From the NCBI RefSeq assembly GCF_000238775.2, contig NZ_AFEJ02000003.1:310001-374000 (forward strand): 64,000 bases of DNA. Direction: 5' to 3'. The DNA is from Acaryochloris sp. CCMEE 5410. GTDB lineage: Bacteria; Cyanobacteriota; Cyanobacteriia; Thermosynechococcales; Thermosynechococcaceae. The notes beneath the pieces were generated by a model. It searched no databases and was not told where the DNA came from. It was given only the letters and a program-made list of their open reading frames with translations. How positions within the stretch are numbered: position 1 is the first letter of the stretch; the number at the start of each line of letters is the position of its first letter. Below are positions 2,036 to 55,364 of this stretch, piece by piece. The translations under genes and the position numbers were made by a program.

Positions 2036-3979
2036 ATGAGAGCGTGGCTAAAATCAATCTACCAATCGACCTTTTTCCCTGCAATATCTAACTTGAAAGA
2101 TACTGAAGAAGACCGGGAAACAGCCTCGCAATGGGTAGTTTGGATGAGGAAACAGTGGTCAGGTCACGGACTAACCACCTTGAATCAACAAAAGAACCCA
2201 ATGACAGAGGTTCGGAGGGCACTTAAGGATCAATTATCACCAGACCACATCATTTTTGATTACATGCAATTTACTGAGAATCAGTGGATTGAGATTAACC
2301 TTCAAGCAGCTCCTACACCCATTGTCTATGGCGACCCGTTGATTAAAGACCCTGACACCATTGTCCACAGAGCGACCCAACTCCTAAATAGCCGTCAATG
2401 GGCTGATAGCCTAGCTGGCCTGACCGCAGTTACGGGGCGACGTTGCGCCGAGCTACTGAAAACAGCTACATTTGCCTATCAATCTCCGGTTAGTATTTGG
2501 CTCACTGGAGCAACCAAAGCCAAGCAAAAGGAACCTCTTTCTTTTGAGCTACCCACCCTTGCTCCCGCTCAACAGGTATTAGACATAATCTCCAAGGTCC
2601 GTAAGTTGGTGGATACAACGGGAATGAATAACCGGCAGATCAATGCTCAGTATGAAGCCGATGTGGTTACGGCCTGCGATCGCACCTTCTGGGATCTTCT
2701 TGATCACGAGCGTGTAGAAGGAAATATCTACAACCATCTTTCCCGCACTGTTTACGCCCGGATAGCTACTCTTTGGTACGCACCCCCACAAATCCTGGAT
2801 ATTGACTTCATGGCAGCAATCCAAGGCCACACCATTATCCTGGGAACCAATGACCTAGAGGATAAAAAAGCCCTCGCAGAAAAGCGACATTATTTTGATT
2901 ACCAGATCGGAACTCAACAAGGTCAAATAGATTCACGGCAAGGTATTCGTCTGAGTGACCCAGACGTGAGTTTTCTAGAGAATTTCCAAGGCGAGGATGA
3001 ACTTGCACCTAAAATAGAAGACACACCTGTACCTAATCCAGTCATGAGTCAACCATCTGCTAGCTCAATTCGGGTATACAAGAAAGACCGGCAACGCTTG
3101 ATGAAAATTCTGGAAGCGTATGGCATAGAGGGGACACGCCCTGAGCAAATGTCGGCGTTTATTTCCGAGGCAGAACAGAAACTCAAACAAACCCAGCTTC
3201 TTGAAAAGGGTGTTAAAGCGTTCATCAAGTCACTCAAAGCCCTGGAGACTCCTGAAGAGATTCGTGACCTCGTACTGAAAGAGATTGCCAAGTTTGAAGA
3301 TTACCCCGATTTCTTCGGAACTTATCGCAACGAGATTCAAGACGCAGTGAGATCGTGCAACTTACCACTCGTGGATGGTAAGACAGCTTTGCGATCGCAA
3401 AATGTCAAGGAAGGCGTCACCTATGAACAGCGAAAGCACTTCGCCTTATTATTTTTAGACAATCCAGATATGACACTTCAAGCACCTGAATCACTCGTAG
3501 CACCAAACAACGGCACACCAACCCCTTCAGCTACCACCACCGATCAAAAGCTGGATATCATCACCGATACGCTTACTCAGTTATGCCAGCTTATGCTTCA
3601 GCAGCAACAGCAATCGGTGCAGCAGCAACCCAACGTTGTTGGACAGACTATTCCTCTTTCACAACCTCCAGCCCCGGCGAAGAAGAGAGGGAGAGGCCGC
3701 TTAGATCCAGAAGAGGCAGATGCCAAGATTCACCGTGCTATCGATGCAATTATGGCTTTCAATGACACTGCCAACCGACCTCAAGAAGAGATGTGGCGAA
3801 TAGGAATTTCTTCACTTAAAAGACTTACGAGTTCGTCTCAGAGCGTCATTCAGAGGGTTTGCAAGAAGAGGAAAAAAGATATTGATGCCCATCATGAGAA
3901 GCACAATCTAGGAAAGTACCATAATCTACCCCATGGACATGCAGGGATTATGATCGATGATGTTATTGCCTGGGAGTGA
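2036..3979 (+). CDS. Telomere resolvase (protelomerase)-like tyrosine recombinase
   Basis: Residues ~110-290 fit the catalytic core of protelomerases (TelN/TelK/ResT family), which cut a palindromic site and reseal it as hairpin ends through a Tyr-DNA intermediate. The motif LTAVTGRRCAELLKTA carries the first Arg (135/136), as in protelomerases. Lys161/163 in a predicted hairpin, Arg237 in HLSR, His265 in IQGH and a Tyr (286 or 289) in HYFDY fit the remaining R-K-R-H-Y positions. The His-Tyr spacing is longer than in TelN, so the nucleophile is uncertain. A Gln-rich linker and a basic C-terminal region with a possible helix-turn-helix (~600-630) follow. The start lies 2 bases after the previous stop, so it is the last gene of the kinase operon. 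It could be an ordinary tyrosine recombinase relative, but the TGRR context argues for the telomere-resolvase branch. Confidence 0.7.
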   Translation: MRAWLKSIYQSTFFPAISNLKDTEEDRETASQWVVWMRKQWSGHGLTTLNQQKNPMTEVRRALKDQLSPDHIIFDYMQFTENQWIEINLQAAPTPIVYGDPLIKDPDTIVHRATQLLNSRQWADSLAGLTAVTGRRCAELLKTATFAYQSPVSIWLTGATKAKQKEPLSFELPTLAPAQQVLDIISKVRKLVDTTGMNNRQINAQYEADVVTACDRTFWDLLDHERVEGNIYNHLSRTVYARIATLWYAPPQILDIDFMAAIQGHTIILGTNDLEDKKALAEKRHYFDYQIGTQQGQIDSRQGIRLSDPDVSFLENFQGEDELAPKIEDTPVPNPVMSQPSASSIRVYKKDRQRLMKILEAYGIEGTRPEQMSAFISEAEQKLKQTQLLEKGVKAFIKSLKALETPEEIRDLVLKEIAKFEDYPDFFGTYRNEIQDAVRSCNLPLVDGKTALRSQNVKEGVTYEQRKHFALLFLDNPDMTLQAPESLVAPNNGTPTPSATTTDQKLDIITDTLTQLCQLMLQQQQQSVQQQPNVVGQTIPLSQPPAPAKKRGRGRLDPEEADAKIHRAIDAIMAFNDTANRPQEEMWRIGISSLKRLTSSSQSVIQRVCKKRKKDIDAHHEKHNLGKYHNLPHGHAGIMIDDVIAWE

Positions 3980-8153: not shown

Positions 8154-9494
8154 CTACAACCCTGTACAATCCAAATGTTTTCGAAAGTAATCCCGAAAGA
8201 GCTGGCAACTGATCACACAGGCATTACCCTGCCAACTGACCAACCCCATGCTGTGAAGCTGAAACGCCTGTTTTGTACCCAGTTGAATGCCGTCTTCAGC
8301 CTCAAGCACCCTGCAGAAAGCAGTCTTCAGTGTTGGATCATTCTGCAAGTTGGACAGCAAACAACGCAGATAATTACCATAGATTCCCCCTTCAGTCGCA
8401 GAATCGGCCAATACCTCCATCAACGTAAGAGGATAGTCATGTAAGTTTGATAGTGCCTGCTGTATGAGGTCAGGATGTCCCCCCACCATTTCCATTAGGG
8501 GAGAATATCCCCGCTCATCAAGTTGATCCTCATTAATGTGAAAGCTCTGGGCAAGCTCTTTAACCTGAGACAAGGTAAATGTGGGTAGGACGATTGGCTT
8601 CCCTACATTAAAAGGCGAGTAATTAATATCTAGCGTAGGATAAGATTGCGTGGAATTAACCACAATAAGATGTAACTGCTTCCAGCACTGGCCAGTAGTG
8701 TTACTAAGCTTTGCTTGTTCGTGCCACCCCCGCAATAGTGAGCAAAAATCTTTGAAAATGGACTCTCGCTCAAAGAGCACATCAAAATTATCAAAGGCTA
8801 AAATAAGTGGCTCTTCAATTTTTACTAGAAGATATTTTTGGAAGTAGCGAGTACAGCTTAGACTGGCCCCTAAACTGCTCCGCCAATATTTCTCAAATTG
8901 ATCCTCAAGGTCTAGACTATCTGCCGTATTCGCGCAAAACCACTGAAGGAATGTTTCCAAATCACAGAAGATATTACAATCAGCCAGTTTTAGATCAATA
9001 GTTACCGTTTGATAGCCTGCCTCACTAGCACATCCCAACACCTGGTTCATCAACCAAGTTTTACCCATCTTTTGAGGAGCCTTAATCCGTACTAATGCCC
9101 CAGGCTGCTGAATCGCCTCAAAACATCTTGTCTCAATTGGAGGACGCTCTATATACACTTCAGATATGACAGAGTCAGATTGTCTGCGGGAATCGGGGGG
9201 TGGCTCACTGGGCTGATGCTTCTCCAGCCATCGCTTCATCGGCTCCTGAAAATTATTCTTTGAGACTGGCTCATTCAATGCCTTTCTGAGTTTGCGCCAA
9301 AGCTTATTGCCCACATCCTTGTTGAGATAGTCAGCCGAATACCCAAAGCGCTCAGCAATCTCCACATAGGTCAATCCTTCCCAAGAGCCAATAAGAACCT
9401 TGATCTCAACATCCCTCAGATGCATACCTGTACTTTGAAAAACAAGTGTATCAGCAACCTTGACAACCATATCTTGAGTCAGGTTGATGCTCAT
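8154..9494 (-). CDS. VMAP-type N-terminal HTH plus AAA-like NTPase
   Basis: Residues ~20-90 fit the helix-turn-helix found at the N terminus of vWA-MoxR-associated proteins: YVEIAERFGYSADYLNKDVG then KLWRKLRKALNEPV. After a Pro/Ser linker comes an AAA-like NTPase with Walker A APQKMGKTWL and a Walker B-like ILAFDNFDVLF, in which Asp-Asn-Phe-Asp replaces the usual Asp-Glu. A winged-helix-like C terminus follows. The ATG at MSINLTQ is preferred to an upstream in-frame TTG. It is the first gene of a two-gene operon with the WD40 NTPase. The same HTH type recurs at about 54 kb. A role in ligand sensing or conflict is inferred from the family. Confidence 0.8.
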   Translation of the reverse strand: MSINLTQDMVVKVADTLVFQSTGMHLRDVEIKVLIGSWEGLTYVEIAERFGYSADYLNKDVGNKLWRKLRKALNEPVSKNNFQEPMKRWLEKHQPSEPPPDSRRQSDSVISEVYIERPPIETRCFEAIQQPGALVRIKAPQKMGKTWLMNQVLGCASEAGYQTVTIDLKLADCNIFCDLETFLQWFCANTADSLDLEDQFEKYWRSSLGASLSCTRYFQKYLLVKIEEPLILAFDNFDVLFERESIFKDFCSLLRGWHEQAKLSNTTGQCWKQLHLIVVNSTQSYPTLDINYSPFNVGKPIVLPTFTLSQVKELAQSFHINEDQLDERGYSPLMEMVGGHPDLIQQALSNLHDYPLTLMEVLADSATEGGIYGNYLRCLLSNLQNDPTLKTAFCRVLEAEDGIQLGTKQAFQLHSMGLVSWQGNACVISCQLFRDYFRKHLDCTGL

Positions 9495-9775
9495 CACTAG
9501 GACCGATTGACAACACTTCAATTAATCACATGGTATCGCTAGAAGTTCAATCGGTTTTCAAATTTCCTGATTATTGCTGATTAGCTTCAATGAGTTTTGC
9601 TACTCATCCTGACAAAACCTGATTTTTATAGTAGTTGATGCCTTATTAGCGAAGATACTATCAGGATTAGATATCCTATTTCTTCCCCATTGAGAATTTA
9701 GTTTGTCTCCTGAATGATTGGACTTATCAATTCAATCGATGTGATAAAAAATTGGGTCACTCAAGGAGAATAGAA

Positions 9776-10435
9776 ATGAAATGGTATACTGCAGCCGCAT
9801 CATTAACTGTAGGACTTCTAATTCCAGTTTGTGCGTTTAGTCCAGTCGCAGCAACTGAACAGCTCCCCAAAAAACTTACCGAAGCCTTTGATGCTTCGAC
9901 AAGGATAGGAACTAGTGAAAATAACTCTAGCTTAAGGACTGTCCATGATAAGAATCAAACCAGGGCACAAATCCCTTTCAACTTAAGCAGACTACTCGAT
10001 CAAATCGAACGGCATCGAGACTTTTTGCAAACCTATGCTCTCAGCGAAGCCCATCGACTTAGTGCAGGCGCACCTGTTAGATGGGATAAAGCAACTACCC
10101 AATTTAACCTCCGAAACCGTCAGCTCGCTGTGACTTTGCACGGCAAAGTCAAGACACCTACCAAAATTTTGCGTGATAAATCGACAAATCTTACCCTTTA
10201 TCTGCAACCAGATCGCCATTTCAATTTTCGATTGACAGGGTATCGTCTGAAAATTAACCGTTGTGGCTTTATCTGTCGCCGCAAAGCGAAGCGGGTAAAA
10301 AAACAACTCAAACAGCAGCTAACAGCACAAGCTCCTCGCATTGAAGCTACCGTCAATAACAAGGTTAGAGAGATTTTACGTAACACCTTAAAGGTCTCCA
10401 GCCATCAGGCACAACCAGCATTACAGGACAAATAA
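9776..10435 (+). CDS. Exported hypothetical protein
   Basis: The start at MKWYTAAAS is set by a strong Shine-Dalgarno (AAGGAGAAT), with a cleavable signal peptide ending near FSPVAA. The mature part, about 190 residues, is basic and has a predicted beta-rich middle (RQLAVTLHGKVKTPTK, TLYLQPDRHFNFRLTGYRLK), then two Cys in CGFICRRK and a Lys/Gln-rich helix. This suggests a periplasmic lipid- or polymer-binding protein. I do not recognise the family. It is transcribed alone, divergently from the NTPase pair. Confidence 0.75.
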   Translation: MKWYTAAASLTVGLLIPVCAFSPVAATEQLPKKLTEAFDASTRIGTSENNSSLRTVHDKNQTRAQIPFNLSRLLDQIERHRDFLQTYALSEAHRLSAGAPVRWDKATTQFNLRNRQLAVTLHGKVKTPTKILRDKSTNLTLYLQPDRHFNFRLTGYRLKINRCGFICRRKAKRVKKQLKQQLTAQAPRIEATVNNKVREILRNTLKVSSHQAQPALQDK

Positions 10436-14733: not shown

Positions 14734-15912
14734 TTAGATAACGCATAGCTTGTTCGATCTCCGAATCATTGATATTTGTTTTAAGCCGTACTGCCCTAGA
14801 CGTTTCCAATTGACGTCATAGACCGAGACCTTTTTAGATTTACTGGTATCAGTGAAGCCTCCAACCCAGCCTGTAATAACCTGACCTTTAGTGGCAACCT
14901 GCACCTTATCCCCCGCTCGAAATCCAAAAGGGGTAACAGTTCCACCCTTGCGCTTACGAACACCACCTTTGCCGGGATTATCGAAGTGCAACGCTCTTCT
15001 AAAATAGGCAGGCCGGGTAATGATCCGAAACTCTGAAGGGGTAGTCTCTACAGAGCCGCGCCATTCATAACCATGCTCGTCAGTAGTCTGGACAATCTTG
15101 TACCTAACAAACTGACTAGCAGCCAAGGCAATACCATCGACGGCATGAGCCTCTGGCATCTGAGCTTTCTTGTCTGTGCATTTAATTAGGCTCAAGTGTT
15201 TACGGATCTGGCTGGTGCCGTTGCCATCTTTTTGCCAACCATGACGCTTGATAACAGGAGCAATGACTTCTAATTGCTCCATTGCCCAGTATTGTGCAAC
15301 CATCACTGGTGAGAATCCCTTGCCTGACCTTGCACCCATGCGACCTGATGTTCTATCTACATCCGCCTTAACGACTTCATAGATAATCGAAGTGATAGGA
15401 AAAATCTTAGAGAGTTCGGTGATTACCCGAATCTCCATTAGCCTGGACGCTTTGATAGAAGGGGGGAGCTTGGATTGACGACGATTGCTAAACCGTTTCT
15501 GTCGATGTGCTCTAAGGTGAAACGCTATCTTGCGGTTGATGCGTCGTCCTCGCCTAACTCGACGCTGTAATGCCTTGCCTCGAACATTTTTGATGACTTT
15601 GCCATTTTTGATGACGGTAGCTCCCAAGCGTTCTTTAATCCGCTGGAAAGGTAAAACTAGGTGAGCGGTATATAGGGTGAAATGAGCAGATTGAACAGCG
15701 ATACCTGAATAAGACGTGCCAGGGTCACAGCCTAAATGAATAGGTTGGGTTTGGGTGCCTGATGGATCTGCTGTGAGCTGAATGTAATAGATGCCAGCAT
15801 CATTCCATTTACCGACAGCTTTGCCATCTCTGACCATGCGACGAGCACGGCTAGGTTTGGTGGGCATTAGCGGCTCACCTTCTGGTGATATGACTGGTAT
15901 TCTTAAAATCAT
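14734..15912 (-). CDS. isrB: IsrB-type RNA-guided nickase (RuvC, no HNH)
   Basis: The N terminus carries the PLMP motif (EPLMPTKPSRARRMVRDGKA) that marks the IscB/IsrB family. RuvC-I follows in HLGCDPGTSYSGIAV (Asp), then the Arg-rich bridge helix RRVRRGRRINRK, RuvC-II in IIYEVVKADVD (Glu) and RuvC-III in EAHAVDGIALA (His/Asp). No HNH domain is inserted between RuvC-II and -III, which separates IsrB from IscB. The 392-residue length fits. IsrB proteins use an omega-RNA to nick the non-target DNA strand. The C-terminal ~100 residues (FGFRAGDKVQVATKGQVITG onwards) are the target-motif-interacting region. All RuvC acidic residues are intact. The guide RNA is encoded directly upstream. Confidence 0.88.
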   Translation of the reverse strand: MILRIPVISPEGEPLMPTKPSRARRMVRDGKAVGKWNDAGIYYIQLTADPSGTQTQPIHLGCDPGTSYSGIAVQSAHFTLYTAHLVLPFQRIKERLGATVIKNGKVIKNVRGKALQRRVRRGRRINRKIAFHLRAHRQKRFSNRRQSKLPPSIKASRLMEIRVITELSKIFPITSIIYEVVKADVDRTSGRMGARSGKGFSPVMVAQYWAMEQLEVIAPVIKRHGWQKDGNGTSQIRKHLSLIKCTDKKAQMPEAHAVDGIALAASQFVRYKIVQTTDEHGYEWRGSVETTPSEFRIITRPAYFRRALHFDNPGKGGVRKRKGGTVTPFGFRAGDKVQVATKGQVITGWVGGFTDTSKSKKVSVYDVNWKRLGQYGLKQISMIRRSNKLCVI

Positions 15913-19638: not shown

Positions 19639-19720
19639 ACAAATCAGATGAATTTTCAGGTCAGAAACACTGTGTCTTTCCGTTCTTAGCTACTAAGTAC
19701 AAATGTACTATAATAGAGTC

Positions 19721-20923
19721 ATGAAGCTACGCTATCGGTATAGAGTCTATCCAACACAAAACCAGCAGACCAAATTGGCTCAGCTATTTGGTTGTTGTCG
19801 CGTTGTTTGGAATGATGCTTTGGCATTAGTGAAGCAATCTCAGGAGTTTCCCAAAAACTCAGACCTTCAAAAGAGTTGCATCACTCAGGCTAAGCGTACT
19901 GAACAGAGGTCATGGCTTAAGGAAGTATCTAACATTCCTCTGCAGCAATCTATTGCCGATTTAGGCGTTGCTATCAAAAACTATTTTGATTCCCAAAAGG
20001 GCAAACGCAAAGGGGCAGCCATAGGTTTCCCTCGGTTTAAGAAAAAAGATAACCGCCAATCTGCCCGATTCCGTAAGGGTGGATTCTCCATCAAAAATGG
20101 CAAGGTCTATTTGACAAAGATCGGCCACTTAAAGACGAAATGGTCAAGACCTCTACCGAGTGAACCTAGCTCCGTCACAATTATCAAAGACCGCAGGAAT
20201 CGCTATTTTCTTAGCTTTGTGGTTGAAGCTGAGGTGCAGAGTTCACCTGCTCCCAATGATGCCGTTGGCGTAGACTTGGGCATCAAAACCTTTGCTGTTT
20301 TGAGTACTGGGGAAAAGATTGATAGCCCCAGCTATCAAAAACTCAACCGTAAAATCAGACGGTTTCAACGACGATTATCTAAACGATTAAAAGGGTCTAA
20401 GCGAAGAGATTTGGCCCGATTGAAAGTGGCTAAGCTCAAAGCAAAACTCAGGGACACTCGCAAAGACTTTTTGCATAAGTTGTCTTCTAGGCTAATTAAC
20501 GAAAACCAAGTGATTGCTCTAGAAGACTTGAACGTCAAAGGGATGATCAAGAATCGTCGCCTGTCTCGTGCGATTAGCGAAGCGGGTTGGTCTGAGTTTC
20601 GGACGATGTGTGAGGCCAAGTCCCAAATGAACAGCCGTGAGGTTCGTGTCATCAGTCGTTGGGAGCCAACTAGCCAGTATTGCTCAGATTGCAGCTATAA
20701 GTGGGGCAAGTTAGATCTATCTGTTAGAGAGATTATCTGCCTTAGTTGCGGAACTCTTCAGGACAGAGATGGCAATGCTGCCACAAACATAAAGAATGTC
20801 GGGGTAGGGCATACCCACGACACTAAATGGACAGGGAGTGGGTGTAAGACCGATGTATCGGCTGTCTGCGATGAGCTGTCCACCCATCTAGTAGATGAAC
20901 AGCTTGTGCTGTTTGCTAGCTAG
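19721..20923 (+). CDS. tnpB: TnpB RNA-guided nuclease
   Basis: The start MKLRYRYRVYPTQNQQ is the standard TnpB opening. The RuvC catalytic residues are in GVDLGIKTFAVLS (Asp), VIALEDLNVKGM (Glu) and DRDGNAATNI (Asp), and a four-Cys zinc finger (CSDC and CLSCG) lies between the last two. At 400 residues it is full length and should be active. TnpB uses a right-end omega-RNA to cut DNA next to the left-end target motif and so favours element retention. TATAAT at 19709-19714 lies only six bases before the ATG, so the mRNA could be leaderless. It is divergent from tnpA. Confidence 0.93.
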   Translation: MKLRYRYRVYPTQNQQTKLAQLFGCCRVVWNDALALVKQSQEFPKNSDLQKSCITQAKRTEQRSWLKEVSNIPLQQSIADLGVAIKNYFDSQKGKRKGAAIGFPRFKKKDNRQSARFRKGGFSIKNGKVYLTKIGHLKTKWSRPLPSEPSSVTIIKDRRNRYFLSFVVEAEVQSSPAPNDAVGVDLGIKTFAVLSTGEKIDSPSYQKLNRKIRRFQRRLSKRLKGSKRRDLARLKVAKLKAKLRDTRKDFLHKLSSRLINENQVIALEDLNVKGMIKNRRLSRAISEAGWSEFRTMCEAKSQMNSREVRVISRWEPTSQYCSDCSYKWGKLDLSVREIICLSCGTLQDRDGNAATNIKNVGVGHTHDTKWTGSGCKTDVSAVCDELSTHLVDEQLVLFAS

Positions 20924-24609: not shown

Positions 24610-24843
24610 ATGAGCTAGCGACCCCTCTCTAACGGAAGAGGCTTGCAAATTCTATAGCTGACCATGGCTAAGTCTTAACTGACTACGTTTTTAAGGCCAA
24701 CTCACCCATAAATGCTTGCCAGTTTGTGGCTCTGAGGTTGGAGATTAAACAGAAGTATGAGGATTAATTCAGTGTCTCCAGCACGACAAACCTTAAAAAC
24801 ATTGCCGAGGCAAACATCACACGAAAGTAGAAGGGACGCAACA
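24610..24843 (+). ncRNA. Omega RNA of the IscB element
   Basis: The stretch between the previous gene and iscB starts ATGAGCTAGCGACCCCTC, then a stem closing at GAGGCTTG, the same order as upstream of isrB; GGATT..TTCAGTG and an AGGGAC block near the 3' end also recur. The guide should be the flanking ~16 bases just upstream (about 24594-24609). The RNA would end at or near the iscB start. Boundaries are inferred. Confidence 0.65.
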
Positions 24844-26121
24844 ATGTCCAACTATGTTTTTGTTATTGATACCAACCATAGACAACTCAATCCTTGTACG
24901 CCAGGGGTGGCACGTTCACTTTTGAATGCAACGAAGGCGGCAGTCTATCGACGGTATCCATTCACTATTATTCTCAAGAAGGAAGTTACGGGACCAGTTG
25001 AACCTTGCCAACTCAAGATTGACCCAGGTTCTAGAGCAACAGGGTTAGCGATTCTCCAAGGCAATAGAGTTCTCTGGGGTGCGGAACTAACTCATAGAGG
25101 CCAATCTATCAAGAACAGTCTGGATTCTCGCCGCTCACTCCGCAGAGGACGACGAGGACGAAAAACCCGATATCGTCAGCCCAGATTTCTCAATCGAACT
25201 CGACCAAAAGGCTGGCTAGCTCCCTCCTTAATGCACCGGGTATTGACCACCATGACTTGGGTAAATCGGCTTATCAAGCTTTGCCCAATCCAATCCATCA
25301 CCCAAGAACTGGTAAGGTTTGATACCCAAGTAATACAAAATCCTGAGATATCAGGTACTCAGTACCAGCAAGGCACTCTTTATCAATACGAGACACGAGA
25401 ATATCTCCTCGAAAAATGGGGACGGCAATGTGCCTACTGCGGTCAAGAAGACACTCCTTTAGAAGTAGAGCATATTGTTTCCCGCTCTAAAGGTGGGAGT
25501 AACCGCGTCTCTAATCTCACAATTGCCTGTGTGTCCTGCAATCAAAAGAAGTCTAATCGTTCTATCGAAGACTTTCTATCGGGCAAACCTGATCTGCTTA
25601 AGCGTATCAAGGCCCAAGCGAAAGCACCTCTTAAGGATGCCGCAGCCGTCAACGCGACACGCTGGAAACTGTTCAAAGCGCTGAAAGAGATGGGCCTTCC
25701 TGTTTCAGTTGGGACGGGTGGTCAGACCAAATTCAACCGCAAGCAACAGGGCTTACCCAAGGCGCATTGGATTGATGCAGCGGCAACGGGGAAAGACATC
25801 CCCGAGCTTGAGTTCTGCACCTGTCAGCCGTTGTTGATTCAATGTTCTGGTCATGGCACACGTCAAATGTGTGGCACAGACAAATACGGATTCCCAATCC
25901 GTCATCGGTCGAAGAAGAAGATTCACTACGGCTTCCAGACTGGTGATATCGTCAAGGCTTTTGTCACGCAAGGTAAAAAGATTGGCTCTTATATGGGGCG
26001 TGTTTTATGCCGGAAGTCTGGCAACTTCGATATCTCGACAAAAGATGGACGAGTAGCAGGAATCAATCACAAGCATTGCACGCATATTCATAAAAAGGAT
26101 GGTTACAACTATGCTTTCTAG
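24844..26121 (+). CDS. iscB: IscB RNA-guided endonuclease (RuvC + HNH)
   Basis: The start MSNYVFVIDTNHRQLNPC is the standard IscB opening and has AAGGGA eight bases before it; an upstream ATG would add 29 residues that belong to the RNA gene. RuvC-I is in LKIDPGSRATGLAIL, the bridge helix is RRSLRRGRRGRKTR, and RuvC-II is in ITQELVRFD. The HNH domain is CAYCGQEDTPLEVEHIVSRS with the CVSCNQKKSN second zinc half, and RuvC-III is in KAHWIDAAATG. The C terminus (GTDKYGFPIRHRSKKKIHYG onwards) is the target-motif-reading domain. All catalytic residues are present, so it should cut double-stranded DNA guided by its omega-RNA. IscB is the likely ancestor group of Cas9. Confidence 0.93.
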   Translation: MSNYVFVIDTNHRQLNPCTPGVARSLLNATKAAVYRRYPFTIILKKEVTGPVEPCQLKIDPGSRATGLAILQGNRVLWGAELTHRGQSIKNSLDSRRSLRRGRRGRKTRYRQPRFLNRTRPKGWLAPSLMHRVLTTMTWVNRLIKLCPIQSITQELVRFDTQVIQNPEISGTQYQQGTLYQYETREYLLEKWGRQCAYCGQEDTPLEVEHIVSRSKGGSNRVSNLTIACVSCNQKKSNRSIEDFLSGKPDLLKRIKAQAKAPLKDAAAVNATRWKLFKALKEMGLPVSVGTGGQTKFNRKQQGLPKAHWIDAAATGKDIPELEFCTCQPLLIQCSGHGTRQMCGTDKYGFPIRHRSKKKIHYGFQTGDIVKAFVTQGKKIGSYMGRVLCRKSGNFDISTKDGRVAGINHKHCTHIHKKDGYNYAF

Positions 26122-46760: not shown

Positions 46761-47753
46761 ATGTTGGATAAGCTATGTTGCCCGCTGTGCGGTAGCTCGA
46801 TCTATTTTTTGCTAGATAGACCTAGCCAACTCATCACATGCAAAACCTGTCGGTTTTCAAGCAAGATTAATCAGGTCCAAGTGGAAAGCCATGACAGCAT
46901 AACCACTCAACAAAACAATAGGGATTTAACTAGTTGGAGACACAGGCTACGTGTCCGTCCGCTGACCAGCGAAATTGGAAAGCAAATGAAATACTTAGTT
47001 GAATTTGATTTGGCCAGAGACACTTACGTTGCCTCTCTTGGGGATAAGATAGCGTTATTTCACAGGTATAGGCAAGGAAGTTTTAGTGATTTGTTTGCAA
47101 TTCGTAATCTAACGATTCAAACGACTATACCTATCAAAACAATCAAATCGGAGCCTAGAATTGCTGGCCTTGGTATCTCAATCATCGCTCTATCTGGGAT
47201 ACTCTTGCTCTCTAATTCAGTCGGCAGCTATAAAAATCTATTGCAATACTCCGCAGTACCTCTTAGTGCTGCCATTGGCCTCACCGCCATGAAGACTTAC
47301 CAAAAGCGACTTTGTGGGCAATCTGAAGCCAGCATCATTCAAGAGCAAGGGTTAATGAGGAATATTCATGAGTTACTAGTCAAACTGAGTAGAGTTCAAG
47401 AAGAGATTACGGCTCGGGCTCAATCACTCTCAGAGTGGCAAGAGCTTGAGCAATCTACAAAAACCATTGATGGCCATGGGCCAAATGTAGCGAACATTGA
47501 AAAAGCGATCGCTCTGATACAGCAGCAACAGCATTCGGCTGAAATCTTGAAAGACAAATACGACCAACAAATTAAGCTGTGGTGGCTTGAACTTCAAGCA
47601 TCACGACTTAGTGATGAACTACCGGTGGACCTGATTCAAGTAGAGACCACTAGGCAGCACGAAATAGCTGAACTTGAGGACTCTTACCATTTGTTGGCTT
47701 TGCAACAAAATTTCCATGCAGAGACGGATAACCAACAGAATTTAAGCACTTGA
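46761..47753 (+). CDS. Membrane protein with N-terminal zinc ribbon and coiled coil
   Basis: The chosen start gives MLDKLCCPLCGSSIYF; a GTG 45 bases earlier would extend it into the divergent gene's start. A four-Cys zinc ribbon (CPLC and CKTC) is followed by a ~100-residue domain, two membrane helices (LGISIIALSGILLLS, LLQYSAVPLSAAIGL) and a long coiled coil (~200-320). No family recognised. It is the only plus-strand gene within the mating/replication block and converges on the replication gene. Confidence 0.65.
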   Translation: MLDKLCCPLCGSSIYFLLDRPSQLITCKTCRFSSKINQVQVESHDSITTQQNNRDLTSWRHRLRVRPLTSEIGKQMKYLVEFDLARDTYVASLGDKIALFHRYRQGSFSDLFAIRNLTIQTTIPIKTIKSEPRIAGLGISIIALSGILLLSNSVGSYKNLLQYSAVPLSAAIGLTAMKTYQKRLCGQSEASIIQEQGLMRNIHELLVKLSRVQEEITARAQSLSEWQELEQSTKTIDGHGPNVANIEKAIALIQQQQHSAEILKDKYDQQIKLWWLELQASRLSDELPVDLIQVETTRQHEIAELEDSYHLLALQQNFHAETDNQQNLST

Positions 47754-50700
47754 AATATTAACTGAACTCTGTATGGGTTCTAGGTTCTGGAGCGGGCAGG
47801 GGATATCAACAAGATCAACAGGTTGGCCAACCCAACTTAACCACGCGAACTCATTCACAATTTTCCTTACCCGGAAGACGACCTGATCCCCGCATCTTTT
47901 AACTAAAGCACCAGGACTAATGTCTGGAAGATTTAGATTAGATACCGGCAAGGTAATCAAACTGGGTTTCTGGGTATTCTCTATTTTGGTTTTGGCTACA
48001 CCTCTGCTTATAATTATACATTTTTGAGTTGCAGGTGTAGCCACTTCAATCCCTTTATTTTCAGTGCATTCAGGCGCTTCCATATATTGTTGGAATCGAG
48101 TTTCAATGCATTCCAACAACACATGATTGAGTTCTATATTATCTGGAGAAATAAAATAATATCTCCGCTTTCCTCTTTCGCTATTGCGCTGCCAGTTTTG
48201 CTCGACTTCAGTCTTGCCGCCAATTAGTTTTGCTAGACGCCCCAGAAACTCCATAGGTTTTTGCTTACCCACTGTGCGTTTTAGCGCTGTCACGATTTCT
48301 CGTCGTTTACAAGTACGATAGATTTGCTGAATTAAACTGGATGAGCTGTTAAAAGATTGGTTGGACTCGAAAAGCGCTAGCAGATTGATCTTGCATAGAG
48401 CCTCAATAAGAGCGAAGTCTGAACGAATGTCAGGCAAGAAGGGAATTGCGCCATCCTCCATCAGTTTTTCCCAGCGCTGGCGGCTTCGGTTCTGGGCAGC
48501 AGTTTGGTGATTGATCAACCACCAGCGTTCGAGGGAAGGAATTAGGGATCGATTCGTAAACAGAAGGGCTTTAACGACATCGGGGGTCCAGTAGTCTGTT
48601 CGATGTAATCCAGGAAGTCGGTGTAGGAGGAACGCTTTATCACAGCTCCACCGTTCTGCGAGAGTTGCACTCCACCTAGATTTAATGTGAATGGCTTGGG
48701 AAAGTGTAATATCCTTGGCATTAAATATTGCCTGTGCATCGGTGGTTAGGATCTGATCGCGAATTTCAGAAGCTTCTTCTTTTAAGCTGGTGACTTGAGG
48801 AAGATCAACAATGGTTACTCGATGCCCAGCTTCTTGGAGAGCAAGTCTAAGGCAGTCCCAGGTATGCTTTCTCTCATAGTTGATGGATGCAGCCAGAATA
48901 TTGTGTGTGGAAAGGTGAGGATCGTTATAGGTTTTGAGTAGTTTATTGATCCACTCTTTGACTGTAGACTCCCGATCCGATCCTTGTAAGGCGGCGAAGG
49001 CATCGGCTCTGAGATAATCCGTCATCCATTGTTGGAGGCGACGGGGGAGGACTGAACGAGTCCCTTCATCTTCTGTGTGCGTGTATCGCTTACACCAGAC
49101 CGCTATTTCTTTCAAGGCTCTGACCCGCTGCATCATTTGGGTCATGCTGGAAATTGGCAACACACCGAAAAAGAGACCAAATCCCTTGTAGAAGAAGTTC
49201 TGAATGCCTACATTTAAACCACTTTCTGCTGTTGGTGAGTAGATCAAGACTCGGGGTTGAGTTTCTTCTAGATAAAAGTCAGGGTCTTTTAGAAACTGCT
49301 TTACCTCTTTATTCGGAGAGGTTTTAGAGTCAACCCGAAGGGTTGAATAGCCTCGCTGTTGAAACAGTGATTCTGCAATCTGACATTGCCGTTGAGAGTC
49401 CGAAAACAAAACGATTGAACGCGGGGTATTAGATGGAGCTAAATCTAAGGCGGCCAACGTGTCAAATGCTAACTGTAGAACTGGTGAACGTTCGTCAATC
49501 GTGTTTCCTTCGGCGGTAATCGTATTCCCCAATAGCTCAATATGCAGTTGTTGCCGCTGATAGGTGTTGAGGATTTTACGGCATGTCCCTACCTCTCTCA
49601 ATTGCGCGAGATAGTCCACGACGACATCAGTATTGTTACCGTCCATTGGTAGTACAAGTTTTGCTCGTTGGATTGCAGCTTTAAGCTTTGCCAGACATTT
49701 ATCTCTTTTGCCAGTGAGGGTACCAGACATCAACCCGTGGAGGACAACACTAAGGCTTTCATCTAAGATGACGATTTTCCCGTCAAAATCCTTGTCTTCA
49801 AAGCGAGTCAAGGAATCTAAGCAACAGGCGATTCTGGATTGGGGATCTGGGATAAGGGGTTGGGCAGAATCGGAATGTAGGTGATAGAATCCCGGCCAAC
49901 GTTCACAGGACTGGAGTAGAAGGGAGTTCCGGTATCCAATTGCTACGGCACCGTCTGAAATCTGGCTGAAGTAGTTTTTTAGCCATTCCGTTTTCCCAGT
50001 CCCCATGCCTGATTTAATCGCAACGATGTCAGCTCCATCTAGATCTGCCGGTTGCAGATTCAGAAATTGTTCATGAATCGTTTGAGTGGGCGTAAATTGC
50101 CGTGATTTTTTCCAAATCTTTAGGGATTGTTGCTCATACTGATGCTGCCATTGATCGTCAATGATGGCTTTACTCATCGCCAGGTAAGTGCTGGGTGTGA
50201 GCAGCCTGATTTGTTGTTGTTTATCGAGGTCTAATTCATCAATATCGCTATCATCATCGTAGGAATGTTGGTCCCACCAAGCGATACTTAGCGAATACCC
50301 CCAGCCTTGTAGAAGAGATGCCGTTTTAGCGATCGCAATATAAACCGACCGATTGGAACTATCACCGGCATCTGGATAGAGGATGATTTGCTCAGGCTGT
50401 AGCACCTCTAGGGTCTCTTTCACCGCTTCAGGGCTAGAGGCAAAGTTAAACCCCGTCGCGCCGATAAAGGTTATCCCCATTTGCTGGCTAGCGAGATAGG
50501 GTTTGAGGGCAACGCTATCAACTAAGCCAATAGTTTTAGAGTCAGTTCTATGAACGGCGATGGGGGATTCTCCCGTTGGGAGCTGCGGCCCGCTGCCGGG
50601 GATGGGTAATTTATCTGAACTGGAGCTAACCCAAAAGTAACCGCCCCCAAAGTTAGGGCGAATTTGCACACCGGTGATCTGACCATGGACGTTGGGAACT

Positions 50701-51242
50701 GCGATCGCAAGTCCCTGATAATATCGCCGCAATAATCCAGTGGATGGATCTACCCCTGGGAGATTGAGTGGGAGCAAGGGGAGTTTGGCGTTGTCCTGCC
50801 AGGTCCAGAATAGGTGTTTCTCAACGGCCTGATGTATTTGATTATTCGACAGACCCCGATGCTCTATGAGGTGTTGGCGTTGTTGCGACCCTAGCCCTGC
50901 ACTAGCAGCAATACGATGGAATTGATAGTCTCGCTCTTCGATACTGGGAAGTTGAGATAGCCGTTGAGCCCGTTCAGCAGCTAGTTGTCTCTCTCGGGCT
51001 AAGCGTTCCTGTTCTTGCTCTTGAGTTGGATTGGAACGCTGGCTATGGGCCTCGGCGGTGATGTACTTTCCAAATCCGTGAGTGTCGAAACCGTCAAATC
51101 GGTACTCTCCTGAGTGATTCTCAGGGCCACGACAAAAATAGGTTCCTGAACTTGACTTTCGACAATCTGGCTTGCCGCGAGAGCCATTGCAAATGGGGCA
51201 AAGGTCGCCAAGTTTGTTCTTGTAGTAGTGAAAGCTAGACAT
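47742..51242 (-). CDS. CyRepA1-family plasmid replication protein (primase/helicase-like)
   Basis: An N-terminal Cys/His zinc-binding region (CPICNGSRGKPDC and then CRGPENH) and a TOPRIM-like domain (IGLVDSVALKPYLASQQMG, EQIILYPDAGDSS; DUF3854 type) lead into a helicase with Walker A AIKSGMGTGKTEWL, DExx-like KIVILDESLSVVLHG and a motif VI QMMQRVRAL. This architecture is that of CyRepA1, reported to support autonomous replication of cyanobacterial plasmids. The usual TOPRIM Glu is replaced by Asp (LVDSVALK). 1166 residues. The origin may lie in the 576-bp upstream gap. Its 3' end overlaps the convergent gene by 12 bases. Confidence 0.8.
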   Translation of the reverse strand: MSSFHYYKNKLGDLCPICNGSRGKPDCRKSSSGTYFCRGPENHSGEYRFDGFDTHGFGKYITAEAHSQRSNPTQEQEQERLARERQLAAERAQRLSQLPSIEERDYQFHRIAASAGLGSQQRQHLIEHRGLSNNQIHQAVEKHLFWTWQDNAKLPLLPLNLPGVDPSTGLLRRYYQGLAIAVPNVHGQITGVQIRPNFGGGYFWVSSSSDKLPIPGSGPQLPTGESPIAVHRTDSKTIGLVDSVALKPYLASQQMGITFIGATGFNFASSPEAVKETLEVLQPEQIILYPDAGDSSNRSVYIAIAKTASLLQGWGYSLSIAWWDQHSYDDDSDIDELDLDKQQQIRLLTPSTYLAMSKAIIDDQWQHQYEQQSLKIWKKSRQFTPTQTIHEQFLNLQPADLDGADIVAIKSGMGTGKTEWLKNYFSQISDGAVAIGYRNSLLLQSCERWPGFYHLHSDSAQPLIPDPQSRIACCLDSLTRFEDKDFDGKIVILDESLSVVLHGLMSGTLTGKRDKCLAKLKAAIQRAKLVLPMDGNNTDVVVDYLAQLREVGTCRKILNTYQRQQLHIELLGNTITAEGNTIDERSPVLQLAFDTLAALDLAPSNTPRSIVLFSDSQRQCQIAESLFQQRGYSTLRVDSKTSPNKEVKQFLKDPDFYLEETQPRVLIYSPTAESGLNVGIQNFFYKGFGLFFGVLPISSMTQMMQRVRALKEIAVWCKRYTHTEDEGTRSVLPRRLQQWMTDYLRADAFAALQGSDRESTVKEWINKLLKTYNDPHLSTHNILAASINYERKHTWDCLRLALQEAGHRVTIVDLPQVTSLKEEASEIRDQILTTDAQAIFNAKDITLSQAIHIKSRWSATLAERWSCDKAFLLHRLPGLHRTDYWTPDVVKALLFTNRSLIPSLERWWLINHQTAAQNRSRQRWEKLMEDGAIPFLPDIRSDFALIEALCKINLLALFESNQSFNSSSSLIQQIYRTCKRREIVTALKRTVGKQKPMEFLGRLAKLIGGKTEVEQNWQRNSERGKRRYYFISPDNIELNHVLLECIETRFQQYMEAPECTENKGIEVATPATQKCIIISRGVAKTKIENTQKPSLITLPVSNLNLPDISPGALVKRCGDQVVFRVRKIVNEFAWLSWVGQPVDLVDIPCPLQNLEPIQSSVNISSA

Positions 51243-51818
51243 AACCTAACTCCCACTTATCAGAGTGGATGCAAGATGAATTCATTGAACAACTCCCATA
51301 TTGTGCTTTGACTATGTGTCGGAGGGGAGTTGTGAAAATATTTTGAGCACACTCTTGAAATGTTATCAAGAGTAGTCTAAAATTTAGGCACAACGAAACC
51401 GGGACACCCATCGCGCTGCTAATGCTTTAGGCTCCCACCCTTCGACAAATAAATTGTTTGAACGGCTTCTTCCCCCGACTGTGACAGGTAAGGGGGTTTA
51501 GTCGTTTATGGGCTTCTTTTTACCTCCTTTTTTAGCTGTTTGTATTAGGGTTGAAAATACACCGAAATGCTTGATCGATCAAGGGTTTAGCGTATTTTGT
51601 AACCGTAAAGTCTACGGTCTCTCCTCTTAGAGAGACATGAAGATATGTCACAGCCTTCTTTCTCCTTGGGCTGGCATGGATCGGTCTCAATGGTATAGAT
51701 AGCAGAAACCTGGACCGATTCTTACACGAGCCCTCAAGGGTTTAATCATGGTTCATTGATACCGCAATCCTACAACAAACTTTTTGAATGATCAAAGTGC
51801 GATCGCTAGAACTGTGAT
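51243..51818. other. Replication-gene upstream region with nested dyads (candidate origin/control region)
   Basis: No gene is visible. A 14-bp perfect palindrome (CTTGATCGATCAAG, 51570-51583) sits centrally between AAAATAC (51554-51560) and GTATTTT (51592-51598), extended by GGTT/AACC. Close by are ACCGTA/TACGGT (51602-51618) and GTCTCTC/GAGAGAC (51617-51636) hairpins, and ATCGGTC/GACCGAT (51680 and 51713). One HIP1 octamer is near the end. Such dense dyads before a rep gene are typical of origins, operators or an antisense control RNA. Confidence 0.5.
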
Positions 51819-52778
51819 TTAAATTCTTTTTGCCTGCCGCTTTGTTGCTGTCGTCCAGGCTAGAACTGCATCAGTACAACGTTCTGGATTAGGCTCACAG
51901 CAAATGCATTGACATTCAAGACGATCTAGCAAGATAAATAAAGAGGGGTCTGGGAGTCCAATGATTACGACTGACTCGCTCGCATCGGCAGTTCCAATAA
52001 CGCAGCTTTCAATGGTTTGTCTAAGAGTCTCAAAGTGAAAGTCTTCTAAGGTTGTGTGGAATGCAAGTGTACTTTTGGTATTCCCCGGTATGCTTTTTGG
52101 CCATTCTTTGGCATTGTTGGGAAAATTGATCAGCAGGGCAATCTCATCAGGAAGAATTTTTCGGAATTTCAGAGCTGAGCTGTCGCCGCAAAATAATCTG
52201 TGGTATCTACCGATGCTCCAAATCTCTCCTTTACGCACCTGTTTGAATCGACTAACTTTCTGAGTTGTCTTAGTTTTCTTCTTCGTTTCGACCTTTCTTT
52301 GTCGTTTACCTGTTTTGGGCTTGGCAAGGGGTGGAGTAGGGACACTCACCACTTCTTCAGCAGCATCTTTATGGATTTCAATCAGTTCACGAGCTATTCT
52401 TTTACCCACATACTCGGATTGAGCCATCTCCAATGCTTCTTGTCGTGCCTCTTCAGGGACAGAAGGGGCTGAGAGCAGGTAAAGTGCAGATTTTGCTATT
52501 TCTAGTTCCGAGAAATTTGCATCATGGAAGCACCTCGCTACCCGCATAAAATTATCGGCAGTGCGTGCTGACATCTCGAATTCAGCATCGATCCAGTCCA
52601 TGAAATAGCCATGGGCTAGTTGTCCCTTTACTTCAATCAGGCTTATACCAATTTTGACAATATTGTCGATGGTGGCAGAGAGAAGATCTTTGATCTTGTT
52701 TGTCTCTTGCTTTAAGCGCTCAGAGAGTTCTGCGTCCAGTTGGCTGTAATCAAAAGAACTGGCTCGTAAGTTTGGCAT
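51819..52778 (-). CDS. DUF3102 protein fused to a degenerate DNA-methyltransferase-like domain
   Basis: Residues ~15-150 fit DUF3102: a helical domain with VKGQLAHGYFMDWIDAEFEM and SARTADNFMRVARCF. After a Lys/Thr-rich linker, residues ~185-319 follow an N6/N4 DNA methyltransferase (as fused to ParB proteins): GEIWSIGRYHRLFCGDSS is the usual start, and EPNPERCTDAVLAWTTATKR the usual end. The catalytic DPPY is replaced by NFPNN and the SAM-binding DPFxGSG by GLPDPSLF, and the middle is shortened. It should bind DNA or partners without methylating. Its paralogue without this domain lies across the TTGCAA array. A role in copy control or partition is inferred. Confidence 0.65.
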   Translation of the reverse strand: MPNLRASSFDYSQLDAELSERLKQETNKIKDLLSATIDNIVKIGISLIEVKGQLAHGYFMDWIDAEFEMSARTADNFMRVARCFHDANFSELEIAKSALYLLSAPSVPEEARQEALEMAQSEYVGKRIARELIEIHKDAAEEVVSVPTPPLAKPKTGKRQRKVETKKKTKTTQKVSRFKQVRKGEIWSIGRYHRLFCGDSSALKFRKILPDEIALLINFPNNAKEWPKSIPGNTKSTLAFHTTLEDFHFETLRQTIESCVIGTADASESVVIIGLPDPSLFILLDRLECQCICCEPNPERCTDAVLAWTTATKRQAKRI

Positions 52779-52850: not shown

Positions 52851-53063
52851 ATTTGCAAACTGTTGCAAATCTAAGGTAGAGGTTTTTGCAACAATTGCAA
52901 AAAACGAGTGGATCAAAATTGCAAAATATTGGAAGGGCTTTTTTGCAAATAATTGCAACCGTTGCAATTATGCCAGCCAGCGGTAATTCTCGCTAGAGAT
53001 GAGGATCAAACTGGCTTTAAGTATAGAACTCAGTCAGTAGACTTTTTGCAACAGTTGCAAAAA
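52851..53063. repeat. Array of TTGCAA palindromes between the two DUF3102 genes
   Basis: TTGCAA occurs ten times (52852, 52862, 52885, 52894, 52918, 52942, 52952, 52961, 53046, 53055) plus one variant TTGGAA at 52928. Neighbours in a pair or triplet are spaced 9-10 bp, about one helical turn, and often sit in longer palindromes with T-tracts and A-tracts; the last has arms TTTTTGCAAC and GTTGCAAAAA around one base. This looks like a cooperative binding array: operator, iteron set or centromere. Confidence 0.85.
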
Positions 53064-53987: not shown

Positions 53988-55364
53988 GTGGAACTTAGTG
54001 AAGCCATAGAAAAAATTAATTATGAGCTGTGTTGCTGTACAGGGGAGCAACTTGGCCCAGCCCAGGAGGTTGTCATTACCGCTGCTTGGGTGGATCAAAG
54101 TTATGAAGAAGCTGCTCTAAGCTCGGACTATAGTTATCTTTATCTTCAACGACATGTAGGCCCAAAGCTATGGGCAGCATTATCTGCGACATATGGACAG
54201 AAAGTGACTAAAAAAAGACTACGTTCCATTGTTGAAGATCAATCTGTTGGTTCTCTACCCCAACAACAAGAAACTATCTCTGATGCTGAAGTTAAAAGTG
54301 TTACTGACTCAGTAATTTTGGGTAGCAGTCTTCCTAGTAATAATGTCTTTTACGGCAGAACGCCAGAATTGGCTCTATTGCGCGCAAGTGTCCTCGATAC
54401 ACAATGTGTTCTGGTACTGGGTCAAGCAGGTATTGGTAAAACAAGCTTAGTTGCACAGCTAGTTAAAAAGTTGAAAAATGAGCCGCAAACCCTAGACATA
54501 TTTGTTTGGCGTCCATTCTATAGTTCAACACCCCTAAGTGAGTTAGTTCCAGAATTGTTGGGATTACTAGATGTTTCTCAATCTGAGGATGAAGACTTGA
54601 TAAATCAGGTTGACCAGTTAATTGAATCCTTGAAAGAGCATCGCATCCTATTGGTATTAGATGGTGTGGATCGATTACTGGAAGGAAAAGACCCTCAACA
54701 GCCATATGGAGATTGTGGTGATTACGCTTGGTTTATACGCACTCTTACAACTGAGGTTCATCAATCTTGTATTCTGTTGACTAGTAGAGAGCCCTTGACA
54801 GAGGTGACTTGGTTGAATGAAACCGGGCAATCTGCACGAATTATTCGATTAGACGGTCTGGGTAAAGATGCCAAGAAGCTCCTTAAAGCACAAGAATTGG
54901 CAGATCAAGATGATTGGGGGACACTGATTCAGATCTACCGAGGCAATCCTTTGTCTCTCAAGATGGTAGCGAGTCGTATAAACAGTTTTTTTAATGGTCG
55001 AGTTAGTCGTTTTCTGAAATGCAAAACTACCTGGATGGGAGAGCCACTTAAACAAGCCCTTGATACTCAGTTTAAGATTGGCCCTTGGTCAGATCTGGAG
55101 CGTGGCTTGATGCAGTATTTAGCAGACGATTTAAAAGAATCGGAACAAATCGCATTTGGCCAGGTGTACCAGACCTTGAAGGATAGAGGCATGATTCAGA
55201 CTATGACTGAATTGATGGAAGCGATAGAAATTTTGTGCGATCGGTCTTTATTAGAGCGGAATCAATCAGATGATAGTGAGGTAATGCTATCCCTACAGCC
55301 TGTAATCAAGAAGTACCTTCTCACAGATCCTTCAGGCATTATTCATAACTCCCTCGCGGCATAG
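53988..55364 (+). CDS. VMAP-type HTH plus NB-ARC-like NTPase
   Basis: It starts with GTG. Residues ~30-80 are the same VMAP-type HTH as at 9.4 kb (QSYEEAALSSDYSYLYLQRH, VGPKLWAALSATYGQKVTKK). Residue ~123 begins an NB-ARC/STAND NTPase with Walker A GQAGIGKT (145-152), Walker B RILLVLDGVDRLL and sensor SCILLTSREPL. A winged-helix end follows (~380-450). There is no repeat or effector domain of its own, so it probably acts with the kinase gene 24 bases downstream, coupling ligand sensing to phosphorylation. The family is linked to bacterial conflict systems. Confidence 0.8.
   Translation: MELSEAIEKINYELCCCTGEQLGPAQEVVITAAWVDQSYEEAALSSDYSYLYLQRHVGPKLWAALSATYGQKVTKKRLRSIVEDQSVGSLPQQQETISDAEVKSVTDSVILGSSLPSNNVFYGRTPELALLRASVLDTQCVLVLGQAGIGKTSLVAQLVKKLKNEPQTLDIFVWRPFYSSTPLSELVPELLGLLDVSQSEDEDLINQVDQLIESLKEHRILLVLDGVDRLLEGKDPQQPYGDCGDYAWFIRTLTTEVHQSCILLTSREPLTEVTWLNETGQSARIIRLDGLGKDAKKLLKAQELADQDDWGTLIQIYRGNPLSLKMVASRINSFFNGRVSRFLKCKTTWMGEPLKQALDTQFKIGPWSDLERGLMQYLADDLKESEQIAFGQVYQTLKDRGMIQTMTELMEAIEILCDRSLLERNQSDDSEVMLSLQPVIKKYLLTDPSGIIHNSLAA

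Follow-up and report, generated by a model that had tools for sequence, protein, structure and literature searches.

Introduction

Acaryochloris cells harbour, side by side, several large plasmids whose Rep modules are related, which raises the question of how incompatibility is avoided. Little is understood of how large plasmids of cyanobacteria replicate and remain compatible (PMC10899382). The stretch of DNA analysed here, a window of 64 kb in all, comes from contig C3 (416,239 bp) in an assembly of 8.09 Mb and 23 contigs. It carries, close to a replication gene, a dense cluster of the palindromic hexamer TTGCAA, which according to the initial annotation could be an operator, iterons or a centromere. 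Which of these does the array represent, and which protein would bind it?

Judged from its relatedness to Acaryochloris plasmids, a MobF relaxase, a TraD/TraG-type coupling protein and a CyRepA1 replication protein, C3 is a large cyanobacterial plasmid with conjugation genes. The following features surround the array (positions refer to the window):

47742–51242, minus strand: rep, CyRepA1-family plasmid replication protein, 1166 aa (NF042913, 588 bits)
51243–51818, minus strand: rep leader, partly conserved with the Rep leaders of sister plasmids (leader alignment)
51819–52778, minus strand: gene A, 319 aa, DUF3102 N-terminus (E 6.2e-9) and a C-terminal domain
52853–53060, no strand: TTGCAA array, ten exact sites and the near copy TTGGAA
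53064–53738, minus strand: gene B, 224 aa, DUF3102 (E 3.8e-6), immediately upstream of the array
53988–55364, plus strand: divergent STAND/NACHT ATPase gene preceding the B-A-Rep cassette, also present on sister plasmids

Results

The hexamer cluster is local and exceeds chance

Exact copies of TTGCAA (n=10) are located at 52853, 52863, 52886, 52895, 52919, 52943, 52953, 52962, 53046 and 53055, with one near copy, TTGGAA, among them at 52929–52934, which bears out the ten hexamers in about 210 bp that had been described. They lie in the 285-bp intergenic gap between genes B and A, both on the minus strand, in a stretch that is non-coding in any plausible gene (gene A starts at 52778, the stop of gene B ends at 53064). 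As annotated initially, the array thus touches the end of one gene, its last hexamer lying 3 bp from the gene B stop codon, and is placed upstream of the other.

Across the whole window the hexamer occurs close to expectation (39 observed, 31.7 in shuffles), so the excess is purely local. The 205 copies on the contig correspond to 0.105 expected per 213 bp; the best 213-bp window on the contig is the array itself with 10, while the runner-up holds 2. The count over the whole plasmid, proposed at the outset as a check, therefore shows that the plasmid does not share this density. No other hexamer exceeds 8 per window on the contig, and the only one to reach 8, TGCAAA, overlaps the same sites. 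In 5,000 dinucleotide-preserving shuffles of the B–A gap, TTGCAA was found 0.61 times on average and at most 4 times, in agreement with the claim that such a count is not due to chance. The gap upstream of A thus holds what is sought in an operator array, namely clustered copies of one site, beyond chance, upstream of the gene to be regulated. Elsewhere in the 8.1-Mb genome the doublet motif, i.e. two hexamers separated by a short spacer, occurs only four times, twice with an N3 spacer (on C1/C2) and twice with an N4 spacer (one on C3, one on C6), and the single extra doublet on C3 adjoins a Crp-like gene.

Anatomy of the array

The sites resolve into the following units, to which a tentative promoter element is added:

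52853–52868, no strand: doublet 1, TTGCAA-ACTG-TTGCAA, 10-bp step
52886–52900, no strand: doublet 2, TTGCAA-CAA-TTGCAA, 9-bp step, inside the 21-bp TTTTTGCAACAATTGCAAAAA
52919–52934, no strand: doublet 3, TTGCAA-AATA-TTGGAA, 10-bp step, second half degenerate
52943–52967, no strand: triplet, TTGCAA-ATAA-TTGCAA-CCG-TTGCAA, 10- and 9-bp steps
53020–53025, minus strand: candidate -10 element TATACT for gene A, tentative, from a motif listing
53046–53060, no strand: doublet 5, TTGCAA-CAG-TTGCAA, 9-bp step, 3 bp from the gene B stop codon

Within exact doublets the steps are 9, 9, 9, 10 and 10 bp, and 10 bp in the near-copy doublet, while the starts of successive doublets are 33, 33, 34 and then 93 bp apart. 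The longest unit common to parts of the array measures 21 bp, with two good copies and one of 71%; doublet 5, inside TTTTTGCAACAGTTGCAAAAA, shares 95% identity with doublet 2. Apart from their doublets, the 33-bp units agree no better than chance (identity 0.10–0.30, 0.27 expected). Hexamers kept amid otherwise unrelated DNA point to selection for protein-binding sites rather than to tandem duplication, and hence to selection on the hexamers and not to duplicated 17–22-bp iterons.

The proposal that the sites share one DNA face is reasonable within a doublet, given the 9–10-bp steps, but is not borne out for the array as a whole, where helical phasing at 10.5 bp is non-significant (Rayleigh p about 0.35) and phasing near 10.75–11 bp is marginal (p about 0.003–0.1, several periods and site sets having been tried). 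Bent DNA, likewise suggested, finds a weak echo in A/T runs of four or more, which are somewhat frequent (8, compared to a mean of 4.6 in AT-matched windows) but equalled in about 10% of these windows. The candidate TATACT sits between doublet 5 and the remaining array; a good -35 element was not found for it, and a consensus promoter scan, which did not report the element at 53020–53025, yielded no convincing promoter.

The DUF3102 proteins A and B

In the Pfam search, A and B match DUF3102 only, a family which Pfam lists as of unknown function, which is rarely mentioned in the literature searched and for which no DNA target is reported there. It is present in 51 of the 388 genomes of the class. 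No solved structure matching DUF3102 and no viral homologue of A were found. Modelling of full-length A was poor (pLDDT 45), and the AlphaFold model of the DUF3102 domain is all-helical at medium confidence (pLDDT 67). In its better-scored half, two helices are predicted around a short turn (residues 58–87), where the motif S-x-R-T-A-x-N-[FY]-[MI] would fit a recognition helix. Foldseek returned no significant match for this domain model, and the best VIA match, to an uncharacterised helical protein, has a Z of 7.4, in a range called common by the tool; the fold searches do not tie DUF3102 to any known DNA-binding fold.

Among 23 members of the DUF3102 family, two match HTH_28 weakly and seven match UPF0137, which includes Pgp6 from the chlamydial plasmid. 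The best of the latter matches (5.9e-8) falls just under the curated cut-off and is aligned over the DUF3102 domain; it connects a cyanobacterial family of unknown function with a plasmid-maintenance protein. Neither A nor B matches UPF0137 itself, so their own link to it is transitive. Chlamydial Pgp6 is presumed to be ParB-like and is required for plasmid maintenance (PMC11895440).

A recurrent STAND-B-A-Rep module

B, A and rep are co-directional on the minus strand, with the array in the gap upstream of A. At 588 bits, well beyond the cut-off of 200 bits, rep is the only match above the NF042913 cut-off in the genome and belongs to the CyRepA1 family. The order A-then-Rep recurs at six loci with enough flank, i.e. 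on C3, C4, C5, C6, G002 and pREC3. C4 has the same order STAND, DUF3102-B, DUF3102-A and Rep; its DUF3102-A gene (L058 8740–11228) is interrupted by a transposase gene (9089–10402), which leaves a 3' remnant. ParB-N/HTH-type proteins occupy both slots, B and A, of C5 and C6, with only a 100-aa fragment in the B slot of C6, and the ParB-N version is also carried by the Acaryochloris plasmids pREC3, pREC2 and pMB05. Residues 156–319 of A are 47% identical to the ParB-N/HTH protein of C5, while the N-terminal parts share no similarity, and profile comparison of DUF3102 with the ParB-type sister proteins revealed no homology. At the level of sequence, these comparisons show that the N-terminal half of A was exchanged on a shared C-terminal domain.

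The rep leader (51243–51800 of the window, minus strand) has elements in common with the leaders of a different Rep, of 1174 aa, on sister plasmids (L058 7760–8740, L059 7267–7933, L060 8062–8746, L390 7739–8534). These comprise a hairpin around TTGATCGATCAA, a GGAGG box, after which an ORF of 2–3 codons is found on the sister plasmids, and a stem-variable hairpin, and together they may form an RNA copy-control element. Single TTGCAA pairs are found upstream of Rep on C6 and pREC3. A conserved TTGCAA upstream of Rep was considered and rejected: in the leader alignment the pairs sit in a small hairpin whose stem differs from one plasmid to the next (C6, CTTGCAA..TTGCAAG; window, CTCTTGA..TCAAGAG), and they are therefore read as RNA hairpins, not as copies of the array.

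Further genes of the window should be mentioned for the record. The segment 53988–60488 encodes the STAND/NACHT ATPase, a serine/threonine kinase-TPR protein matching PD-T4-6 defence models, a TPR protein and a CHAT-domain protein, a set which flanks the B-A-Rep module on C5 and pMB05 too. A 647-aa protein (2036–3979) matches part of TelA, a telomere resolvase, with an E of 6.9e-11 but a score that falls far short of the curated cut-off. From translations judged by eye, two proteins resemble IscB-type RuvC/HNH nucleases (14734–15912 and 24757–26121) and one resembles TnpB (19703–20923).

Occurrence of the array and of TTGCAA elsewhere

The array is absent from the corresponding gaps of the ParB-type modules on C5 and C6, and the C4 gap shows a weak excess of degenerate sites (2, compared to 0.36 expected, with up to two mismatches). 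A perfect 25-bp palindrome, CAGTTGTGCAACGGTTGCACAACTG, lies inside the coding sequence of DUF3102-B on C4 (L058 11765–11789), and its core resembles the TTGCAA doublets of the window. No closely similar array was found at the sampled loci, and in the 388 genomes of the class the array pattern was detected only in this genome and in two with small, doubtful matches, one of them being a single hairpin. An orthologue of A close enough for a site-conservation test was not found either. Site conservation at orthologous loci, also sought in an operator array, is thus not seen in a comparison made without a close orthologue of A, which renders conservation unusable as evidence. Two candidate clusters were discarded: one of TTGCAA next to a Rep gene (G061) is one long hairpin, and one of AAGCTA near the DUF3102 gene of G007 lies upstream of a small XRE-like gene and not of the DUF3102 gene. 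In the latter genome, AGCTTA/TAGCTT-type repeats (L023 2516–2701, G007:C177) precede an XRE-like gene of 89 aa, a further regulator with a repeat array of its own.

TTGCAA clusters are frequent beyond this locus, with at least 120 in genomes and at least 120 in viral contigs. Two control hexamers gave 6 and 21 matches in the whole viral set, compared to at least 120 for TTGCAA, so that, measured against these controls, viral and bacterial contigs hold an excess of TTGCAA arrays. In about half of the clusters listed all steps are multiples of three, as in coding repeats, the remaining ones listed have diverse, unrelated neighbour genes, and no DUF3102 gene lies near any of the matches listed. 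On these grounds one shared family behind all TTGCAA arrays was rejected, and TTGCAA must be regarded as a common target or repeat and not as a family mark. Among the matches listed, Bacillales intergenic DNA carries long arrays of 20-bp period with up to 17 copies, and many phages carry smaller ones (examples from the genome and viral contigs are L155, L198 and L092); TTGCAA seems to be a widely used repeat or operator word. In at least one phage contig, a TTGCAA doublet occupies the gap between divergent XRE-like genes, and the MEME consensus of promoters bound by PraR of Rhizobium is TTGCAA as well (PMC4149787), so that operators of more than one protein family may plausibly be built on this hexamer.

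Discussion

Proposed model

The array is a real, locally unique, operator-like feature in a replication module. We propose a model, to which we would give about an even chance, in which it is an operator through which A and/or B would govern A and probably rep. The operator would consist of about five TTGCAA doublets, to which one or both DUF3102 proteins, filling the ParB-like slot of the replication module of this plasmid family, would bind cooperatively. Occupancy of the array, which is situated 75–282 bp upstream of the A start codon, would set transcription of A, and if A and rep are carried on one transcript, read-through would probably set rep expression too. Repression would be the default, and the array would serve to control copy number and would also be a determinant of incompatibility.

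Several observations favour binding as an operator. On its contig of 416 kb the array has no equal and it far exceeds what shuffles yield, and its hexamers are kept in unrelated DNA, as expected of protein sites. It is placed in the gap upstream of A within the co-directional order B-A-rep, and A precedes Rep at six loci, with the slot taken on sister plasmids by ParB-N/HTH proteins that carry the C-terminal domain of A. Other DUF3102 members match UPF0137 (5.9e-8), residues 58–87 are modelled as a pair of helices with a short turn between them, and TTGCAA is a documented regulator target in the case of PraR and forms a doublet between phage XRE-like genes. Against it stand the lack of conservation, with no array on C5 and C6 and a weak excess on C4, the lack of a convincing promoter, the absence of DUF3102 genes near TTGCAA arrays elsewhere (among the matches listed), and a DUF3102 fold not tied to known DNA-binding folds. 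Since the gap upstream of B contains no TTGCAA, simple autoregulation of B is not indicated.

In a broader and more speculative form, which we consider rather doubtful, DUF3102 would represent a ParB-like class of site-specific DNA-binding proteins without adjacent ParA, regulating the replication of cyanobacterial plasmids via an array of TTGCAA doublets of its own. Cross-talk between sister plasmids of one cell would then be prevented by exchange of the whole N-terminal DNA-binding half, which is either DUF3102 or ParB-N/HTH, while the C-terminal domain and the Rep module stay the same.

Alternative explanations

Of the three readings offered initially, that of an operator-like binding array agrees best with the observations, that of classical iterons agrees poorly, and that of a centromere is possible, since the neighbours belong to a ParB-like slot. 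In this last case, which we judge possible but on balance improbable, A and/or B would build a partition complex on the doublets, a ParA encoded elsewhere would move the plasmid, and regulation would be secondary, as it is for centromere-binding proteins elsewhere. Short-repeat arrays are typical of plasmid centromeres, the proteins in the homologous slot of sister plasmids show weak ParB_N matches plus an HTH and are annotated as ParB/RepB/Spo0J on Acaryochloris plasmids, and DUF3102 relatives match UPF0137, the family of Pgp6. The latter is presumed to be a chlamydial ParB (PMC11895440). However, the parA gene that ParABS systems place beside the centromere-binding gene is missing: four ParA queries detected no parA-like gene in the 64-kb window and none within about 1.5 kb of DUF3102 genes at the sampled loci, while the ParA genes of C3 reside with small partner proteins at 385.6, 104.8 and 205.7 kb of the contig. 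The ParB-type sister plasmids also lack a comparable hexamer array in the B–A gap. Centromere and operator readings share the same binding step and differ in its outcome; the lack of a nearby parA together with the constant linkage to Rep favours replication control over partition.

It is unlikely that the array serves as operator for an unrelated XRE or ribbon-helix-helix regulator of the plasmid or the host, with A and B merely as target genes. PraR, reported to bind promoters with a TTGCAA consensus (PMC4149787), belongs to the chromosomal regulators of Rhizobium and is not known to be a DUF3102 protein, TTGCAA arrays of phages and bacteria lie beside many different genes, some of them XRE-like and, among the matches listed, none of them DUF3102, and the single further doublet on C3 neighbours the Crp-like gene. 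Yet no such regulator gene adjoins the array, the nearest genes being A, B, the STAND protein and rep, and a regulator of many genes should leave more than the four doublets found elsewhere in the genome.

It is very unlikely that the array consists of origin iterons to which the CyRepA1 protein, whose gene is 1.6 kb away, would bind. Plasmid iterons are direct repeats of about 17–22 bp conserved over their length, while the units of this array have no common sequence beyond the hexamers. The array lies near rep, at 4.6 kb from the cumulative GC-skew minimum of C3 (contig 358,272, window 48,272); it is thus placed in the replication region, yet not at the minimum itself, which lies inside rep, and gene A intervenes between array and rep. 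No DnaA box (pattern TTWTNCACA) was found within 8 kb of the array or in the sampled loci, where it should be noted that origins without DnaA boxes exist. Upstream of the sister Rep genes only degenerate or single pairs occur, partly explained by the RNA hairpins described above. In addition, the ssr7036/asRNA1-slr7037 locus, which is under the control of an RNA pair, sufficed on its own for replication of a plasmid derived from pSYSA, and no iterons are mentioned (PMC9978351).

That the array is no protein site at all, but RNA hairpins in the B–A transcript acting in processing or attenuation, or a neutral repeat expansion, is hardly credible: the minus strand of the region does fold better than its shuffled versions (z -4.4), and each hexamer is self-complementary, but such repeats fold well by construction, so that the z-score does not discriminate, and neither a terminator-like site near the array, nor a credible Rfam match of the region, nor any trace of tandem duplication in the spacers was found.

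Comparison with known systems

Should A or B target the array, as the operator model demands, a concrete and testable site of copy control or incompatibility would be at hand, and DUF3102 would gain its first DNA target. Among known regulators, PraR of Rhizobium leguminosarum has the same TTGCAA as the consensus of its bound promoters. It regulates several chromosomal genes, however, with praR among the bound promoters, and no array of ten sites in the replication module of a plasmid is described for it (PMC4149787). Pgp6 is approached through the UPF0137 matches of DUF3102 relatives (E 5.9e-8 over the DUF3102 domain), while A and B themselves lack such a match; Pgp6 is moreover paired with the ParA Pgp5, whereas the array locus has no nearby parA. 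The ParB-N/HTH proteins of pREC3, pMB05, C5 and C6 share the STAND-B-A-Rep slot and the C-terminal domain of A (47% for C5) but differ in their N-terminal half, ParB-N plus HTH without detectable homology to DUF3102, and have no TTGCAA array.

The replicon of pSYSA from Synechocystis resembles the locus in that the Rep downstream of the array is of the CyRepA1 family too. There, a leader ORF and an antisense RNA lie next to rep and control is exerted by an RNA pair, while neither a DUF3102 pair nor a hexamer array is reported (PMC9978351). With iteron and parC/parS-type arrays, finally, the C3 array has in common that short repeats are clustered near rep or maintenance genes, but it repeats only a palindromic hexamer, in 9–10-bp doublets with unrelated spacers, and adjoins neither parA nor a DnaA box. 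The kind of element is therefore already known, while the proteins and the module are new to such an element.
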